The notes under the pieces were generated by a model. The model had not been told where the DNA came from, searched no databases, and worked only from the letters and a program-made list of their open reading frames with translations. From Nitrospinota bacterium (GTDB lineage Bacteria; Nitrospinota; Nitrospinia; UBA9942; JAHJSF01), in assembly GCA_018830405.1 (NCBI GenBank), contig JAHJSF010000083.1, positions 1-7,156 of the forward strand: 7,156 nt of DNA. Reading direction: 5' to 3'. Shown here piece by piece: positions 1-5,365 of the stretch (position 1 is its first letter; the number at the start of each line of letters is the position of its first letter). A program made the translations under genes and the position numbers.

Positions 1-93
1 GGCGTTTAAATCTAGTGAAAAAAGCTTCACAATTTGACGAATTTTAGCCTCTGAAATTTTCGAACGTTTTGCATACCTGTTTTTTACTGTCAT
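1..93 (-). CDS. IS1595-family transposase, N-terminal fragment (runs off the left edge)
   Basis: Reading leftward from the ATG at 93-91 there are 31 open codons to the window edge. The peptide contains RSKISEAKIRQIVKLFSLDL, which closely resembles the start of IS1595/ISSpo8-type transposases as I remember them (a helical DNA-binding N-terminus of the form RS-ISEAK-R-I-KLF-LD). The DDE-type catalytic domain would lie outside the window, so activity cannot be judged. The in-frame codon at 105-103 is a stop, which fixes the ATG at 93 as the only ATG start available. No clear Shine-Dalgarno is seen. The gene points away from the Rrf2 operon and begins 28 bp inside the inferred element end at 140. 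The family call comes from remembered motif similarity over a short stretch. Confidence 0.75.
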   Translation of the reverse strand, partial: MTVKNRYAKRSKISEAKIRQIVKLFSLDLNA

Positions 94-120
94 AGCTAGA
101 CATTAGCATATATTTTAATG

Positions 121-140
121 TGCTGTTCTAGTCATGACCC
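121..140 (-). repeat. Putative terminal inverted repeat of the IS element
   Basis: This 20-bp stretch ends in GTCATGACCC on the + strand, so the minus strand reads inward from GGGTCATGAC. The inner GTCATGAC (131-138) is itself a perfect palindrome. It is proposed as the terminal repeat because of its position just outside the transposase start. Its partner lies outside the window. Confidence 0.5.
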
Positions 141-158
141 AAAATATTTAAAAAGATA

Positions 159-187
159 TTGACAATAGGCTAAACTAATACTATTAT
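159..187 (+). promoter_or_regulatory. Sigma-70 type promoter of the Rrf2 operon
   Basis: A perfect -35 box TTGACA (159-164) is followed, after exactly 17 bp, by the -10 box TATTAT (182-187), five of six to consensus. The start codon of the Rrf2 gene at 217 lies about 23 bp after the expected transcription start, leaving a short leader. This is the strongest promoter match in the window. The -10 box falls in the centre of the palindrome at 173-197, so a protein bound there should block the promoter. Confidence 0.85.
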
Positions 188-197
188 CGTATTAGTT
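173..197 (+). promoter_or_regulatory. 25-bp palindromic operator over the -10 box, probable Rrf2 binding site
   Basis: AACTAATAC (173-181) and GTATTAGTT (189-197) are perfect 9-bp inverted repeats separated by seven bases that contain the -10 box. The total length of 25 bp matches the operator length known for IscR-type Rrf2 dimers. The site lies directly in front of an Rrf2 gene, so autorepression is the natural inference. The base sequence is not the E. coli IscR type 1 consensus, so the motif would be particular to this regulator. Confidence 0.75.
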
Positions 198-216
198 GGC
201 CAACCGGAGGAGAGAA

Positions 217-636
217 GTGAAGTTACTTAACAAAGATTCAGATTATGCCATAAGGGCACTGCTTAGCTTGGGGTTGAATATAGAGGAGAGGATGTCCTCC
301 CGTGATATCGCCGAGGCTCAGGGAATACCCCTCCAATATATGAGACGTATCCTGCAGACCCTTGTCAGGGAAGGGTATCTTGAGTCAAAGGAAGGAGTTG
401 GTGGGGGGCTGCGGCTTATAGTAAATCCGGCAGATATCGCTATAAGTGATGTTATTAAGGTATTTCAGGGGGAGATTCGGGTTTCAGAGTGTCTCTTTCG
501 GCAAAATGTCTGCCCCCAGTATGGTACCTGTGTTTTGCGGAGAAGGCTTGCGAAGATAGAGACGAAGGTTGCCAAAGAATTTGAGGGGATTACCGTTGAA
601 AATCTTTTAAGTGACTTGAAGGAGGAAGAAGAATGA
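217..636 (+). CDS. Rrf2-family transcriptional regulator, IscR/NsrR-like with Fe-S cysteines
   Basis: This is a winged-helix DNA-binding regulator of 139 residues, normal for Rrf2. The N-terminus MKLLNKDSDYAIRALL is typical of the family. The recognition helix region is about residues 27-50 (SSRDIAEAQGIPLQYMRRIL), and the wing holds the GVGGGLRL glycine patch (60-67). Cysteines 92, 99 and 105 (C-x6-C-x5-C) sit where IscR has C92, C98 and C104, so an Fe-S cluster sensor is likely. The GTG at 217 is preferred over an in-frame TTG at 196: it has GGAGG at 206-210 six bases upstream, and the TTG start would lie inside the operator and put the Shine-Dalgarno within the coding region. The stop overlaps the next gene's start (ATGA, 633-636), so the two are translationally coupled. 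Whether it senses NO, Fe-S status or redox state cannot be read from sequence alone. Confidence 0.9.
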   Translation: MKLLNKDSDYAIRALLSLGLNIEERMSSRDIAEAQGIPLQYMRRILQTLVREGYLESKEGVGGGLRLIVNPADIAISDVIKVFQGEIRVSECLFRQNVCPQYGTCVLRRRLAKIETKVAKEFEGITVENLLSDLKEEEE

Positions 637-1463
637 AGAGAAACATTATCAAGATAGATGAGGAATTATGTAATGGGTGTGGACTTTGTGCCAACGGCTG
701 CCCGGAGGGGGCGATACAGATGATAGATGGTAAAGCCCGACTAGTTGGAGAACTCTTATGCGATGGACTCGGTGCTTGTATCGGCGATTGTCCGGTTGAC
801 GCTATTCAGATAGAGACCCGTGAGGCGGAGCCGTATGACGAGGTGAAGGTGATGGGGAACATTGTGGCTAAAGGGGAGTCTACCCTAAAGGCTCATCTAA
901 AACATTTGTATGATCATAAACAGGAGGAGTATCTAATGATTGCCGAAAAATATATGAAAGAAAATAATATAGACGTACCTGACTATAAAGGAGGGAATAA
1001 GGATATGGGTTGCGGATGTCCAGGTTCCATGATGAGGGATATGCGGGGGAAGGGGGAGGAGAAGGCTGCTGCTTCGCAGACTACAGGGCCTCTTTCCTCT
1101 GCATTACGCCAGTGGCCAACCCAGCTCCAGCTTCTTAACCCTATGGCTCCATATTTCAAAGATGCCGACATCCTAATAGCGGCCGACTGCACCGCCTTCG
1201 CCTATGCCGACTTTCATAGGCGTTTTATTAAGGATAAGACAATGGTCATGTTTTGCCCCAAGCTGGATAGCGGGCTAGAGGGTTATATTGAAAAGCTGAC
1301 CACTATCTTTAAGGAAAACAATATTAAATCTATAACGGTAGTCCGAATGGAGGTTCCCTGCTGTAACGGAGCCCTCCGTATCGCAGAAGAGGCCTTAAAG
1401 AGATCAGGCAAAAATATCCTTATGAAGGAATATGTCGTCTCGATAGATGGAAATATTATCTGA
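633..1463 (+). CDS. Ferredoxin-like 4Fe-4S protein with cysteine-rich C-terminal domain
   Basis: This 276-residue protein is probably cytoplasmic and has an N-terminal 2x[4Fe-4S] ferredoxin fold. The first motif is complete (C13, C16, C19, C23-P). The second has C43, C49 and C53-P, with Leu46 where the second cysteine would be, so one cluster has only three standard ligands. A linker with CGCPG (C127, C129) leads to a conserved-looking C-terminal domain (about 160-276) with AADCTAFAYADFHRRF, FCPKLD (C208) and EVPCCNGALRIAEEAL (C243, C244). I recall this architecture from anaerobes, often next to Rrf2 or hybrid-cluster genes, but know of no proven reaction. GGAGG at 621-625 is well placed for the ATG at 633. 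Position directly behind the Rrf2 gene suggests a redox or NO-stress electron-transfer or metal-site role, which is inference. Confidence 0.85.
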   Translation: MKRNIIKIDEELCNGCGLCANGCPEGAIQMIDGKARLVGELLCDGLGACIGDCPVDAIQIETREAEPYDEVKVMGNIVAKGESTLKAHLKHLYDHKQEEYLMIAEKYMKENNIDVPDYKGGNKDMGCGCPGSMMRDMRGKGEEKAAASQTTGPLSSALRQWPTQLQLLNPMAPYFKDADILIAADCTAFAYADFHRRFIKDKTMVMFCPKLDSGLEGYIEKLTTIFKENNIKSITVVRMEVPCCNGALRIAEEALKRSGKNILMKEYVVSIDGNII

Positions 1464-1473
1464 CTTTCCTATC

Positions 1474-2166
1474 ATGAGACTTCATTATTTGCAACATGTC
1501 CCCTTTGAGGGGTTGGGGGCTATAAGCGAGTGGGCCGTTAAAAAAGGTTTCGAGATAGGCGTAACCAATCTTTATAGCGGAGAGTCTCTCCCCTCGATAG
1601 AGGAGATTGATTGGCTCTTTGTTATGGGGGGGCCGATGAATATATATGAGGAGGCGCAACATCCCTGGTTAAAGGTTGAGAAGGCGTTTATCTGCCGGGC
1701 AATAAGAGAGGGGAAGGTTGTTATCGGTATATGTCTTGGCGCCCAGCTTATAGCCGATTGTTTGGGGGCTAAGGTTACCCCCAACCAATATAAGGAGATA
1801 GGATGGTTTCCTGTCTCTCTCCGCCAAGATATGTTTGGTTTACCGAAAGAGTTTGTCCCCTTTCATTGGCATGGTGACACCTTTGGGACTATAGAGGGGG
1901 GCGAGGCTTTTGCAAGGAGTGAGGGATGTTTAAATCAGGCCTTTTCGTACGACAATGGGCGTGTTGTTGGGCTTCAGTTTCATCTGGAGGTTACAGCTGA
2001 TTCAATCTCAGCCCTTGTAGAAAATTGTGGAGATGAGTTGGTAGAGGGGCCATATATAGAGAGCAGAGAGAGTATGTTGACCAGGGATGAATATATTGCG
2101 GAATCTAACAGATTGATGTGTCTCCTTTTGGATAATATCTATAAAAAGAACAACAGGGGGAAATAA
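1474..2166 (+). CDS. Class I glutamine amidotransferase (GMP synthase-like domain protein)
   Basis: This is a stand-alone class I glutamine amidotransferase of 230 residues. Such enzymes hydrolyse glutamine and pass ammonia to a partner synthetase. The catalytic set is visible: nucleophile Cys87 in GICLGAQ, and His170 and Glu172 in LQFHLEVT. The oxyanion-side MGGPMNIYEE (about 51-60) and the HWHGD motif (about 131-135) are typical of GMP synthase-like amidotransferases. No synthetase domain is fused and none is encoded nearby, so the acceptor is unknown. I chose the ATG at 1474 because MRLHYLQHVPFEG is the usual family start. An in-frame ATG at 1447 would add nine residues and overlap the previous gene by 17 bp. 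Neither start has a good Shine-Dalgarno, so translational coupling to the ferredoxin-like gene, which stops at 1463, is plausible. Confidence 0.85.
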   Translation: MRLHYLQHVPFEGLGAISEWAVKKGFEIGVTNLYSGESLPSIEEIDWLFVMGGPMNIYEEAQHPWLKVEKAFICRAIREGKVVIGICLGAQLIADCLGAKVTPNQYKEIGWFPVSLRQDMFGLPKEFVPFHWHGDTFGTIEGGEAFARSEGCLNQAFSYDNGRVVGLQFHLEVTADSISALVENCGDELVEGPYIESRESMLTRDEYIAESNRLMCLLLDNIYKKNNRGK

Positions 2167-2171
2167 TTGAG

Positions 2172-2477
2172 GTGTCAGCCAATATACCAAGAGAGATATC
2201 CATAATCGGTGAGATGATAGGTATCTACTGTCGTGGCAAACATTCAGATATTAAAAATAGTGGCAATCTTTGTAAGGAGTGTGCTTCCCTGCTTGAATAT
2301 GCCGAAGGAAAGTTAAGGAAATGCCCCTACCAGGAGGAAAAACCGAGCTGTAAAGATTGTTCCATCCATTGCTATAGCAGGGAGTATCGTGTTACCATTC
2401 GGGACGTAATGAAATACTCCGGGTGGCGTTTTATGGTTAGGCCCCCTTTAGAATCATTACTTAAGTACATTAGTTGA
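2172..2477 (+). CDS. ygbA: YgbA-family protein (nitrous oxide-stimulated promoter family)
   Basis: This small cysteine-rich protein of 101 residues matches E. coli YgbA along its length from memory: IGIYCRGKH, LCKECASLLEYA, KCPYQEEKPSCKDCSIHCY and MKYSGWRF. Seven cysteines (20, 34, 37, 51, 60, 63, 67) fall in the family positions and suggest metal or Fe-S binding. In enterobacteria ygbA belongs to the NsrR regulon and is needed under nitrosative stress; its biochemical function is not settled. Here it lies in an operon headed by an Rrf2 protein of the same superfamily as NsrR, which supports the same type of control. The start is GTG at 2172, five bases after the preceding stop, with AGGGGG at 2155-2160 a little far upstream. 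The C-terminus is slightly shorter than in E. coli. Confidence 0.88.
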   Translation: MSANIPREISIIGEMIGIYCRGKHSDIKNSGNLCKECASLLEYAEGKLRKCPYQEEKPSCKDCSIHCYSREYRVTIRDVMKYSGWRFMVRPPLESLLKYIS

Positions 2478-2502
2478 TCTTATTTTTCAGGAAGAATAAA
2501 TT

Positions 2503-2661
2503 ATGAACATTATAAATACGGCAATCGGCGGGGTAATAGGCGGTATTTTGGGTTATATCTTCAGATGTTCCGGCGGAACATGCCCTCTAAGGAGTACTCC
2601 CCTAAGAAGCACCATCTATGGCGTAGTCCTGGGGGCATTGATAGGTTCAACCATAAAATAG
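2503..2661 (+). CDS. Small membrane protein, DUF6132-like, 52 residues
   Basis: This short gene is well supported despite its length. ATG at 2503 follows AGGAAG (2489-2494) at eight bases, 25 bp behind ygbA. The product has two glycine-rich hydrophobic segments (about 3-20 and 36-50) joined by a loop with RCSGGTCPLRSTP, then STIYGVVLGAL. The pairing C22-x4-C27-P followed by a short S/T-N/T-P segment and STIYG matches what I remember of DUF6132 small membrane proteins, whose function is unknown and which I recall near rhodanese or thioredoxin-type genes. The two cysteines in the turn between the helices could bind a metal or form a redox pair, which is inference. As last gene of the operon it is likely co-expressed with ygbA and the ferredoxin-like gene. 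Confidence 0.75.
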   Translation: MNIINTAIGGVIGGILGYIFRCSGGTCPLRSTPLRSTIYGVVLGALIGSTIK

Positions 2662-2717
2662 GCAGCGCCTCAGAGATAAATTACGGATTGCCCCACCGTT
2701 AACCACCTGTTTTTGTA

Positions 2718-2746
2718 TTGCAATAGAAATATTTTATAGATATAGT
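2718..2746 (+). promoter_or_regulatory. Candidate promoter for the phospholipase-like gene pair
   Basis: TTGCAA (2718-2723) and TATAGT (2741-2746) are spaced by 17 bp and match the sigma-70 boxes at four and five of six positions. They lie about 60 bp before the start at 2805, within an AT-rich gap. I see no convincing terminator for the upstream operon: there is only a weak ACGG/CCGT pairing near 2685-2700 before a short T run at 2710-2714. Read-through from the upstream operon cannot be excluded. Confidence 0.45.
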
Positions 2747-2804
2747 TTCCCCTGTCACAACAAGTTTTCTCACTTATCCACACTATCTTGGGGAGATAGA
2801 ATAG

Positions 2805-3218
2805 ATGAGATACATAAACGCCATATTGGCTATTAATCTTCTTTTGCTGGCAGGTTGTTTAGGAGCAGACCAGCATATAAATAAATTGGCCCAGGAAGTA
2901 TATTCAAAATCAACGTTGGAAGAACCTCTCCCCCCCCACGAATTCAAATCTGACGGCTGCTCATGTTGGCCGGATAGCGAATGGATAGAGTGTTGCGTAG
3001 CCCATGATTTGGACTATTGGATGGGAGGAACAGCAGAAGAACGGAAACAGTCTGACAAGAGGTTGCAAGAATGTGTGGCCAGCAAGGGTCACCCCCTTAT
3101 GGGGAAGGTTATGTATTTAGGCGTACGTCCAGGGGGAGTATATTGGCTTCCGACCCCTTTCAGGTGGGGATTCGGTTGGGATTACCCTCAGTCCGGCCCA
3201 CCGGGGAAAAAATATTAA
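2805..3218 (+). CDS. Phospholipase A2-like lipoprotein
   Basis: This is a 137-residue exported lipoprotein. The hydrophobic signal ends in lipobox LAGC with Cys18 as the lipidation site; residue 19 is Leu, not Asp, which would favour the outer membrane in a Gram-negative cell. The mature part has DGCSCWPD (50-57), then CCVAHDLDYW (63-72), then SDKRLQEC (83-90). The CC-x2-HD-x2-Y arrangement copies the secreted phospholipase A2 catalytic helix (Cys-Cys-x-x-His-Asp). DGCSC resembles its cysteine-glycine calcium loop, and Asp84 with Cys90 resembles the second helix carrying the catalytic Asp. The end (GVRPGGVYWLPTPFRWGFGW) is aromatic and glycine-rich. Small bacterial proteins of this pattern are known to me, but not with proven lipase activity. 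GGGGAG at 2790-2795 supports the ATG. The downstream gene begins 34 bp after the stop. Confidence 0.65.
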   Translation: MRYINAILAINLLLLAGCLGADQHINKLAQEVYSKSTLEEPLPPHEFKSDGCSCWPDSEWIECCVAHDLDYWMGGTAEERKQSDKRLQECVASKGHPLMGKVMYLGVRPGGVYWLPTPFRWGFGWDYPQSGPPGKKY

Positions 3219-3252
3219 CCTAATAACAATAATTTCAACTTAGGAGGTTCCG

Positions 3253-4326
3253 ATGCAAATAGACGGACATCATACCCTAACCTACATCGCCGCCCGCTTA
3301 GCCGGATATGGGCACAGGGATGCAGATATAATAGCCTACAGTGCCCAGTATGTCGACGATGCCACCAATGCCGGTGTTATACATTTTGATAACGGGGCCA
3401 AGTATAGCCGTATCGCCTCCGCCCATAAGACCTTCGACTATCGAAATACAGACGAATTGGCCAATCACCTTGTTTGGATCCCTTTTCATTTCCTCCCCGG
3501 CAATGGGGGTAAACCTGCCGGAGAAAACCCGGATGGGACATTTATAAAAAAGCTGGTCTGTTATCCTGATGGCTGCGTGGCTAGGGATATGCTCAGGTCC
3601 TGCGCCGCCGATATTGAAAAACCGTATGCCCTGCACCGCCTCGGAATAACCATGCATGTCTATGCGGACACGTGGACACATCAAGGTTTTGCTGGGGTAA
3701 ATCATGGAATAAACGATGTAGACAACCTTGAAAGTAACGACAAAAAAAAGGATAAAAACTTTTTTTGTAAAATAGCCAACTATTTCCTGGGGGATGCCTT
3801 CCCATTGGGGCATGGGGCGGCACTGAGTTACCCTGACACCCCAAACCTGGTATGGAAATATAAAAACGGTCTCGGGGAAAAGGTGGAAAGGGATAATCAG
3901 GATATCTTTATGGGTGCGGTAGATAATATGTGCCGAGCGACGCAATGTTTTCGCCGGTCTGATACCGAGATGAATCTGGAGGCAATGGACGGGCTGCCGG
4001 CCAAAGACTCTGAAAAGATATTGTCTCTCATTCAATCAATAAATGGAGATTCAGGGGAAAAACGTCACGAAATATGGATTGAAGAGATAAGAAAGGGGAA
4101 TTTTTCATTTGGCGCGGAAGAAATTGGCTACATCCCTAAAGGGGAAGGTTCTTGGAAGCATAAATCTATAGGACAGGTTTCGGCCTCAGATACAGGCCGG
4201 GAAGAGTTCCCTTTTAAAGAAACATTTATGTCGTCCGACTGGAAGATGTTTCACGATGCCTTGCAGGCCCACCGATTGGCCGTTTTGCATGATGTCCTCC
4301 CTAAGTATGGGATATGCGCAGCTTAG
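3253..4326 (+). CDS. DUF6765-type protein, zinc-dependent phospholipase C-like
   Basis: This 357-residue protein has no signal peptide that I can see. The N-terminal region (MQIDGHHTLTYIAARLAG, then IAYSAQYVDDATNAG and WIPFHFLPG) matches the DUF6765 family as I recall it. Candidate metal ligands follow the zinc-dependent phospholipase C/nuclease P1 fold: H6, H7, D35, D36, H58, H72, H79, H128 and MHVYADTWTHQGF, where H135-x3-D139-x3-H143 is the clearest set. The family relationship to zinc phospholipases is inferred from this pattern. The region 162-175 is lysine-rich and encoded over runs of eight A and seven T, which looks like a local insertion. AGGAGG at 3242-3247 gives a firm start. It probably shares a transcript with the preceding lipoprotein gene, and a common lipid substrate is possible. 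Lack of a signal peptide leaves its location open. Confidence 0.72.
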   Translation: MQIDGHHTLTYIAARLAGYGHRDADIIAYSAQYVDDATNAGVIHFDNGAKYSRIASAHKTFDYRNTDELANHLVWIPFHFLPGNGGKPAGENPDGTFIKKLVCYPDGCVARDMLRSCAADIEKPYALHRLGITMHVYADTWTHQGFAGVNHGINDVDNLESNDKKKDKNFFCKIANYFLGDAFPLGHGAALSYPDTPNLVWKYKNGLGEKVERDNQDIFMGAVDNMCRATQCFRRSDTEMNLEAMDGLPAKDSEKILSLIQSINGDSGEKRHEIWIEEIRKGNFSFGAEEIGYIPKGEGSWKHKSIGQVSASDTGREEFPFKETFMSSDWKMFHDALQAHRLAVLHDVLPKYGICAA

Positions 4327-4338: not shown

Positions 4339-4427
4339 TGGAGATACCGCCAACCTATAAATTGAATATTACCCCAACTATTCGACATACTGGTTCCATT
4401 CACTTGTTAGCCCCTAAAATAGACTAT

Positions 4428-4853
4428 ATGCAAACAAAAAACACAAAAGAGGCCCTTCACCAAACAGTCAATCTTTTTAAGACAATGCTCCCCATGTTGT
4501 TCGGCATGCTCCTCCTTGTAAGCCTGATGCAGCAGCTATTTCAGCAACACTACCAAAGTTGGTTTACCGGTAATTATATCCTCGACCCCCTTATAGGTAC
4601 CTTGGCCGGGGCTATATCTTTTGGAATACCGATAACAAGTTATATAGCCGGAGGTGAACTGGTAAAAGGAGGGGTTAGTCTTCTGGCCGTTACCGCCTTT
4701 ATTATGACTTGGACAACGGTTGGTCTGATTATGATCCCATGGGAAGCATCCTTTTTGGGGAAACGTTTTGCCATAGCCAGAAATATTCTCAATTTCTTTT
4801 TTGCCCTTCTTATCGCCATGGCCACCGTCTATACTCTGGGGCTTCTATCGTGA
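4428..4853 (+). CDS. Half-size permease, ArsP/YraQ-like, first subunit
   Basis: This is an integral membrane protein of 141 residues with about four membrane segments (roughly 18-36, 51-72, 84-104 and 118-138). The segment GAISFGIPITSYIAGGELVKGG (61-82) has the glycine-proline re-entrant look of the ArsP_1/DUF318 permease family and is followed by an FIMTWTTVGLIMIP helix. Full-length members run about 300-350 residues and contain two such halves; this one is a single half and lacks the cysteine-rich loop of some YraQ proteins. The ATG at 4428 is chosen because it begins just before the conserved part. A TTG at 4362 is possible but would add 22 residues that look unlike the family. Neither start has a Shine-Dalgarno. 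It overlaps the next half-permease by four bases. The substrate cannot be told. Confidence 0.68.
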   Translation: MQTKNTKEALHQTVNLFKTMLPMLFGMLLLVSLMQQLFQQHYQSWFTGNYILDPLIGTLAGAISFGIPITSYIAGGELVKGGVSLLAVTAFIMTWTTVGLIMIPWEASFLGKRFAIARNILNFFFALLIAMATVYTLGLLS

Positions 4854-5365
4854 AGAGTTACCAACCTCTCTTTTGGCAGAAATTAAGCGGCAGGACAAAA
4901 TTCCTCATTTTCACCTTGGGGCTATATGCCATTATCTCCCTCTTCAATACCGCCGTAATAGTAAACTCTCTTAGCTATTTTAGTTTCATGCTTACCAAGG
5001 TTATCCCTGTCTTGGGACTCGTCTTTATAATCCTTTTCCTGACCAACCTATTTTTGAAGCCGGAACGGATAAAAAAACATATGGGGAAAGACTCGGGATT
5101 GAAGGGCTGGTTTTACGACCTTATCGGCGGGATTATTATTTCCGGGCCTCCCTACGTCCTCTACCCTATGCTGGGGGAGCTTCAGGATAATGGGGCCAGA
5201 AATGGATTAATAGCCGCTATTTTATATAACCGAAACGTCAAAATACATTTCCTCCCTGCCATGATTTATTATTTCGGGATGCGCTACACAGTTGTCCTTT
5301 CAATATACATACTTTTGTTTTCACTCTTAAACGGCAAACTACTTGAAATTATTGTTGGTGAATAG
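4850..5365 (+). CDS. Half-size permease, second subunit
   Basis: This 171-residue membrane protein has hydrophobic segments at about 17-36, 44-69, 88-108, 116-127 and 136-160. The motif GGIIISGPPYVLYPMLGEL (93-111) mirrors the G-x-P re-entrant segment of the partner, and the tail LYNRNVKIHFLPAMIYYFGMRYT is of a kind I associate with half-size permeases next to a sister gene. The start is GTG at 4850, inside GTGA with the partner's stop. The frame is open further upstream to about 4709, but those codons lie wholly within the partner gene and are not membrane-like. The four-base overlap implies translational coupling at near 1:1 stoichiometry, as expected for a heteromeric transporter. Substrate unknown. 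Confidence 0.68.
   Translation: MKSYQPLFWQKLSGRTKFLIFTLGLYAIISLFNTAVIVNSLSYFSFMLTKVIPVLGLVFIILFLTNLFLKPERIKKHMGKDSGLKGWFYDLIGGIIISGPPYVLYPMLGELQDNGARNGLIAAILYNRNVKIHFLPAMIYYFGMRYTVVLSIYILLFSLLNGKLLEIIVGE

Follow-up and report, generated by a model that had tools for sequence, protein, structure and literature searches.

The window, which is the whole stretch of DNA analysed (7,156 nucleotides), corresponds to contig C55 of a host genome of 1.42 Mb in 185 contigs that is 87% complete (G000). Five genes were found in a row on its plus strand. The first encodes an Rrf2-family regulator (positions 217-636, GTG start, 139 aa, Pfam Rrf2 5.7e-32) and overlaps through an ATGA with the gene for a ferredoxin-like protein of the FrdX family (633-1463, 276 aa, Pfam Fer4 8e-12). 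A stand-alone class-I glutamine amidotransferase (1474-2166, ATG start, Pfam GATase 2e-17) follows after 10 bp, YgbA (2172-2477, GTG start, 101 aa, YgbA_NO PF11756 7e-30) after a further 5 bp and a small glycine-zipper membrane-type protein (2503-2661, DUF6132 1e-10) after another 25 bp. The label of PF11756 in the Pfam and NCBIfam profile search is 'nitrous oxide-stimulated promoter'. All the ORFs and gaps agree with the first-pass annotation, which had read them as one five-gene operon. The membership of the DUF6132 gene is doubtful; spacing is the one feature that ties it to the others. Among the other loci fetched, L182 alone has a DUF6132 gene near ygbA, and there it is encoded on the opposite strand; the gene of the window is likely to be a chance follower.

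The start at 217 is preferred for the regulator because an ORF from the TTG at 196 would begin on the last base of the palindrome described below and because GGAGGA is located upstream of the GTG at 217. A longer ORF, from 1447, is available for the amidotransferase; its start was placed at 1474 since the alignments of solved homologues begin at residue 10 of the 1447 ORF. A defence-system reading was rejected as none of the five genes had a match in PADLOC, and an RNA element was rejected as there was no Rfam match across the window.

The Rrf2 regulator and its candidate operator

The best solved (PDB) relative of the regulator is Streptomyces NsrR (ScNsrR, 5n07). The cluster ligands of ScNsrR, three cysteines and Asp8 (C93, C99, C105 and D8; PMC5411485), are matched in the alignment by C92, C99, C105 and D9 of the window protein. 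The three cysteines were found to be conserved in all 66 of the 66 Rrf2 proteins encoded next to frdX, where their spacing is x6-x5 in the window, Elusimicrobiota and Omnitrophota and x6-x4 in Bacteroidales. The regulator is probably an [Fe-S] sensor with C92, C99, C105 and D9 as ligands.

With curated equivalog models, the regulator fell below the cut-offs for NsrR (NF008240, 50 bits against 182) and for IscR and RirA (61 bits against 207 and 193). Since it lies far under all three, it could respond to iron, redox state or oxygen as effector. The scores were alike for the RirA, IscR and SUF-regulator models (61-67 bits) and lower for NsrR (50 bits), which favours an explanation by Fe-S homeostasis or iron limitation, where an IscR- or RirA-like Rrf2 protein would sense iron or Fe-S demand and FrdX and YgbA would repair or supply clusters. 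We regard this explanation as unlikely: the Asp ligand and the operator geometry resemble those of ScNsrR, the neighbours seen across phyla are nitrosative-stress genes (Hcp, HcpR, hemerythrin/DUF438 and YgbA) and no isc or suf genes were observed among the recurrent neighbours. From its sequence, the regulator is best explained as an NsrR-like yet non-NsrR [Fe-S] repressor that would be autoregulated.

A promoter with 11 of the 12 consensus bases, the best site in positions 1-3300, is located on the plus strand at 159-187 (TTGACA at 159-164, 17-nt spacer, TATTAT at 182-187). Over its -10 box lies a 23-bp palindrome at 174-196, ACTAATAC-TATTATC-GTATTAGT (8-7-8), with 12-nt arms that match at 92%. 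A fixed 8-7-8 scan replaced a best-palindrome shuffle with 11-nt arms, which was too permissive for single loci, and detected a single perfect 8-7-8 palindrome in the window, namely this one, with 0.145 expected in shuffles. The ScNsrR site also has 23 bp and a 7-bp centre (PMC9338935), and the palindrome in the window is probably the Rrf2 operator. The assembled host genome holds no second exact match and no extra site with two or fewer mismatches; one site was found at three mismatches, compared with 11 in the control.

In Elusimicrobiota and Omnitrophota relatives, we observed the site AATGATAC-N7-GTATCATT, from which the window operator differs at two positions per half-site (Elusimicrobiota consensus). 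This site precedes Rrf2-frdX, Rrf2-hcp and hcp in Elusimicrobiota and Rrf2-frdX in Omnitrophota. When up to one mismatch is allowed, 41 of the 121 genomes of one Elusimicrobiota order contain it, and the reversed-pattern control occurs in 1 of 121. Most of the distinct sites (41/56) are located at Rrf2, frdX or hcp genes, with 35 of the 56 in front of frdX (33 Rrf2-frdX, 1 Rrf2+frdX and 1 frdX). The remaining sites belong to hcp or Rrf2-hcp (3), Rrf2 alone (3), a family of ~110 aa (8) and nothing recognised (7). The ~110-aa family (YPKNLE...), which is found behind the operator in L255, L260, L272, L273, L279, L281, L283 and L285, is a candidate for an extra regulon member in Elusimicrobiota. 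In L269 and L296, the operator has Rrf2-hcp on one side and, on the other, a divergent membrane ORF whose product resembles a cytochrome c biogenesis protein.

The position of the palindrome relative to the promoter was also found to recur. TTGACA starts exactly 7 bases before the palindrome in 33 of the 47 Rrf2-linked sites, so that the right half-site TATCAT is the -10 box there. In the window, L041 and L125, TTGACA starts 15 bases before the palindrome and the palindrome centre is the -10 box. The bound regulator would cover the promoter in both layouts. L041, which holds the closest Rrf2 relative, carries ACTGGGAC-TATAATT-ATCCCAGT with the register seen in the window, and a relative from the same order (G003, locus L125), with the gene order Rrf2-hemerythrin-frdX, carries the related operator AATGAGAC-N7-GTATCAAT. 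The upstream regions of the Bacteroidales Rrf2-frdX genes showed, as a group, no palindrome beyond shuffles, so this Rrf2 subtype (x6-x4) may use another site. In the literature searched, we found no paper linking Rrf2 and Elusimicrobia.

FrdX and its gene neighbourhoods

When genome contigs were searched with the 276-aa FrdX, 80 loci were obtained, which span Elusimicrobiota, Omnitrophota, Bacteroidales, Clostridia, Spirochaetes, Planctomycetes and others. The protein is 44-63% identical, over its full length, to these 80 relatives, which are encoded in loci with hcp, HcpR or Rrf2. In the 72 loci where frdX was called as a gene, the commonest families within four genes of it were CRP/FNR of the HcpR type (30/72), Rrf2 (23/72) and Hcp (21/72). 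The family name was assigned here from the hcp/HcpR gene context, by which the ferredoxin-like protein of the window is identified as FrdX, known to accompany Hcp in HcpR regulons. Members of a permease family (cluster c46) were also seen within four genes of frdX in L029, L045 and L056.

FrdX was described as the ferredoxin-like partner of Hcp in the HcpR nitrosative-stress regulon (Rodionov 2005, PMC1274295). NO raises the expression of both frdX and hcp ~200-fold in C. difficile, whose cells become NO-sensitive when one or the other gene is knocked down (PMC12915319). The protein is thus not the unexpected partner it had been taken for, as its family has long been placed in the HcpR/Hcp regulon (PMC1274295) and is NO-induced in C. 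difficile (PMC12915319). Because FrdX belongs to this family, most of the operon, seen earlier as a candidate for an undescribed system, fits a described one; new in it are the stand-alone amidotransferase, the operator of the Rrf2 protein and the lack of hcp.

The predicted model of FrdX has an N-terminal ferredoxin part with two Fe-S domains and a separate C-terminal alpha/beta domain. In an alignment of 36 relatives, the first cysteine motif is C13-x2-C16-x2-C19-x3-C23 and the second, which is atypical, is C43-x5-C49-x3-C53. Residues C129, D185-C186, H195, C208 and C243-C244 of the C-terminal domain were found to be invariant, which suggests an additional metal site there. Ferredoxins were matched by the N-terminal part with weak E-values, and no convincing solved relative was found for the C-terminal domain.

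Neither Hcp (PF03063) nor NrfA was found in the host genome, which is 87% complete, and hcp could lie in the unassembled 13%. Elsewhere, this genome encodes a protein with a match to the ODP/flavodiiron domain family. The presence of an ODP-domain protein where Hcp was not found would suit a response to oxygen or general redox stress, in which the cluster senses O2 or redox state and FrdX aids oxygen reduction, for example via an ODP-family protein. We consider such a response highly improbable, as FrdX and YgbA are NO-responsive wherever measured and mutation of hcpR in C. difficile brings sensitivity to nitrogen species but not to oxygen species (PMC12915319).

YgbA and the stand-alone amidotransferase

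Of 295 genomes sampled in a single Bacteroidales order, 66 were found to encode YgbA. Few other groups have it (11 of 242 relatives), with none among the other sampled genomes of the window's own class. A comparison of frdX and ygbA neighbourhoods across genomes, proposed with the first-pass annotation, showed the genes to be linked: of the 59 loci where ygbA was called as a gene, 15 had frdX at a distance of up to four genes, 14 a cupin, 12 hcp and 10 Rrf2. Both frdX and Rrf2 were invariably upstream of ygbA on the same strand. Under an independence model with two copies in 3,500 genes, the proximity of frdX and ygbA in 15 of 70 loci has P ~5e-21, which is a rough guide only because related genomes are not independent. 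Many Bacteroidales YgbA loci have neither frdX nor hcp nearby. YgbA adjoins a FrdX C-terminal domain in G107, and in two genomes that we assign as Aquificota-like (loci L135 and L136) it is located beside a Prismane/CO-dehydrogenase-family protein and a CRP-type regulator.

Eight residues (C20, C34, C37, C51, C60, C63, H66 and C67) were found to be invariant in 68 aligned YgbA sequences. All eight are kept in the window protein, where W replaces the nearly invariant P85. The predicted model is confident (pLDDT 86); Foldseek gave no match to its fold at E<=0.001, and a relative of solved structure was not found either. The eight putative ligands favour an accessory metal or Fe-S role, which is the likeliest one for YgbA as judged from these residues. 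For some twenty years YgbA has served as a reliable marker of the NsrR response, and to our knowledge no function has been assigned to it. The ygbA gene is NsrR-regulated (PMC2884951, PMC5320621), and one group was unable to obtain a ygbA mutant in Salmonella (PMC2884951).

The catalytic triad of the amidotransferase is complete (nucleophile C96, H179 and E181, numbered from 1447) and the protein resembles the stand-alone enzymes 9xfs, 3l7n and TM1158 (1o1y). An amidotransferase gene was observed immediately upstream of ygbA in three Bacteroidales loci, with the orders Rrf2-frdX-cupin-amidotransferase-ygbA in L193 (0 bp between the last two genes), Rrf2-frdX-hemerythrin/PAS-amidotransferase-ygbA in L033 and hemerythrin/PAS-amidotransferase-ygbA in L206, at a contig end. 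These amidotransferases are 41-45% identical to that of the window. As the L206 protein is only 43-46% identical to those of L033 and L193, the pairing is either old or has arisen more than once. Three such adjacencies in 70 loci correspond to a rough P of 1e-6, with the related genomes not being independent. Because the adjacency of ygbA to frdX and to the amidotransferase gene recurs in other genomes, the linkage goes beyond chance.

It is also conceivable that Rrf2-frdX alone is the functional unit and that the other three genes (amidotransferase, ygbA and DUF6132) come after it on the same transcript by chance. The lack of YgbA from the other sampled genomes of the class and the presence of amidotransferase relatives elsewhere in the class would fit this account, which we nevertheless consider very unlikely since the adjacency of amidotransferase and ygbA is seen again in L033, L193 and L206 and the pair is led by Rrf2-frdX in two of these (L033 and L193). 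The recurrent pairing of amidotransferase and ygbA, as read from gene order, is the main novelty in gene content.

Proposed function and relation to known regulons

The HcpR-hcp/frdX regulon (PMC1274295; C. difficile, PMC12915319) shares with the window the FrdX family as core and the nitrosative-stress gene set. Its regulator belongs to CRP/FNR whereas that of the window is an Rrf2 protein, and the window operon adds ygbA and the amidotransferase, with hcp not found in the host genome. The NsrR regulons of enterobacteria and Streptomyces resemble the window in an Rrf2 protein with aligned ligands, a 23-bp palindrome and autoregulation (predicted for the window), and ygbA, a target in the enterobacterial regulon, is a member of the window operon. 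However, the window operon has no hmp, ytfE or hcp, its half-site is ATGATAC/CTAATAC compared with the AAGATGCATTT-type site of E. coli NsrR, and its regulator has x6-x5 cysteine spacing and falls below the NsrR model cut-off. The Rrf2-frdX-hcp loci of Elusimicrobiota, Omnitrophota and Bacteroidales have the same Rrf2-frdX pair as the window. In the first two groups a palindrome likewise covers the promoter, and ygbA is found in Bacteroidales. Unlike the window, the loci of the three groups mostly have no amidotransferase and carry hcp or hemerythrin-PAS genes instead, and the window-type operator was not found in the Bacteroidales loci.

A response to NO or Fe-S stress had been proposed from the pairing of Rrf2 with YgbA. 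The neighbourhoods, the cluster ligands and the conserved operator support this proposal. Beyond what was observed (gene order and its recurrence, ligand conservation, the conserved layout of operator and promoter), we infer that NO is the signal, that the regulator represses and what each protein does biochemically. We consider it likely that the genes form an autoregulated nitrosative-stress operon of an anaerobe under an NsrR-like Rrf2 [Fe-S] repressor. From homology and operator position, the holo-form of the regulator with its Fe-S cluster would bind 174-196 and block RNA polymerase. NO or another reactive nitrogen species may then destroy the cluster and release the repressor, so that the regulator, FrdX, the amidotransferase and YgbA would be made from a single message. 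Judging by its family, FrdX would donate low-potential electrons to a metalloprotein that reduces NO or hydroxylamine; in relatives, this metalloprotein is Hcp. In the least certain step, YgbA might act as an accessory metal or Fe-S protein and the amidotransferase might work with it, perhaps as a hydrolase of a gamma-glutamyl or amide substrate.

FrdX, Hcp, YgbA and Rrf2 regulators are each already known singly in the context of nitrosative stress. The new elements are the operator of this Rrf2 clade across phyla and the recurrent grouping of FrdX, amidotransferase and YgbA without hcp. A more far-reaching reading, which we put forward tentatively and hold to be possible rather than probable, is that the amidotransferase and YgbA constitute an undescribed two-protein nitrosative-stress repair function tied to FrdX and that the Rrf2 proteins form a new NO-sensing clade with its own operator controlling frdX/hcp across several phyla. 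The search for YgbA partners is narrowed by its repeated location beside FrdX/Hcp and, in three other genomes, directly behind the amidotransferase; both poorly understood proteins thereby gain a common testable context. The operator provides a sequence handle for Rrf2-controlled nitrosative-stress regulons in Elusimicrobiota and Omnitrophota.

Further ORFs are located downstream of the operon. A lipoprotein-like ORF at 2805-3218, with no match in Pfam, contains a CCVAHDLDYW motif that we take to be reminiscent of phospholipase A2 active sites. It is followed by a DUF6765 protein at 3253-4326 (E 7e-105) and by two half-permease-like ORFs side by side at 4362-5365.
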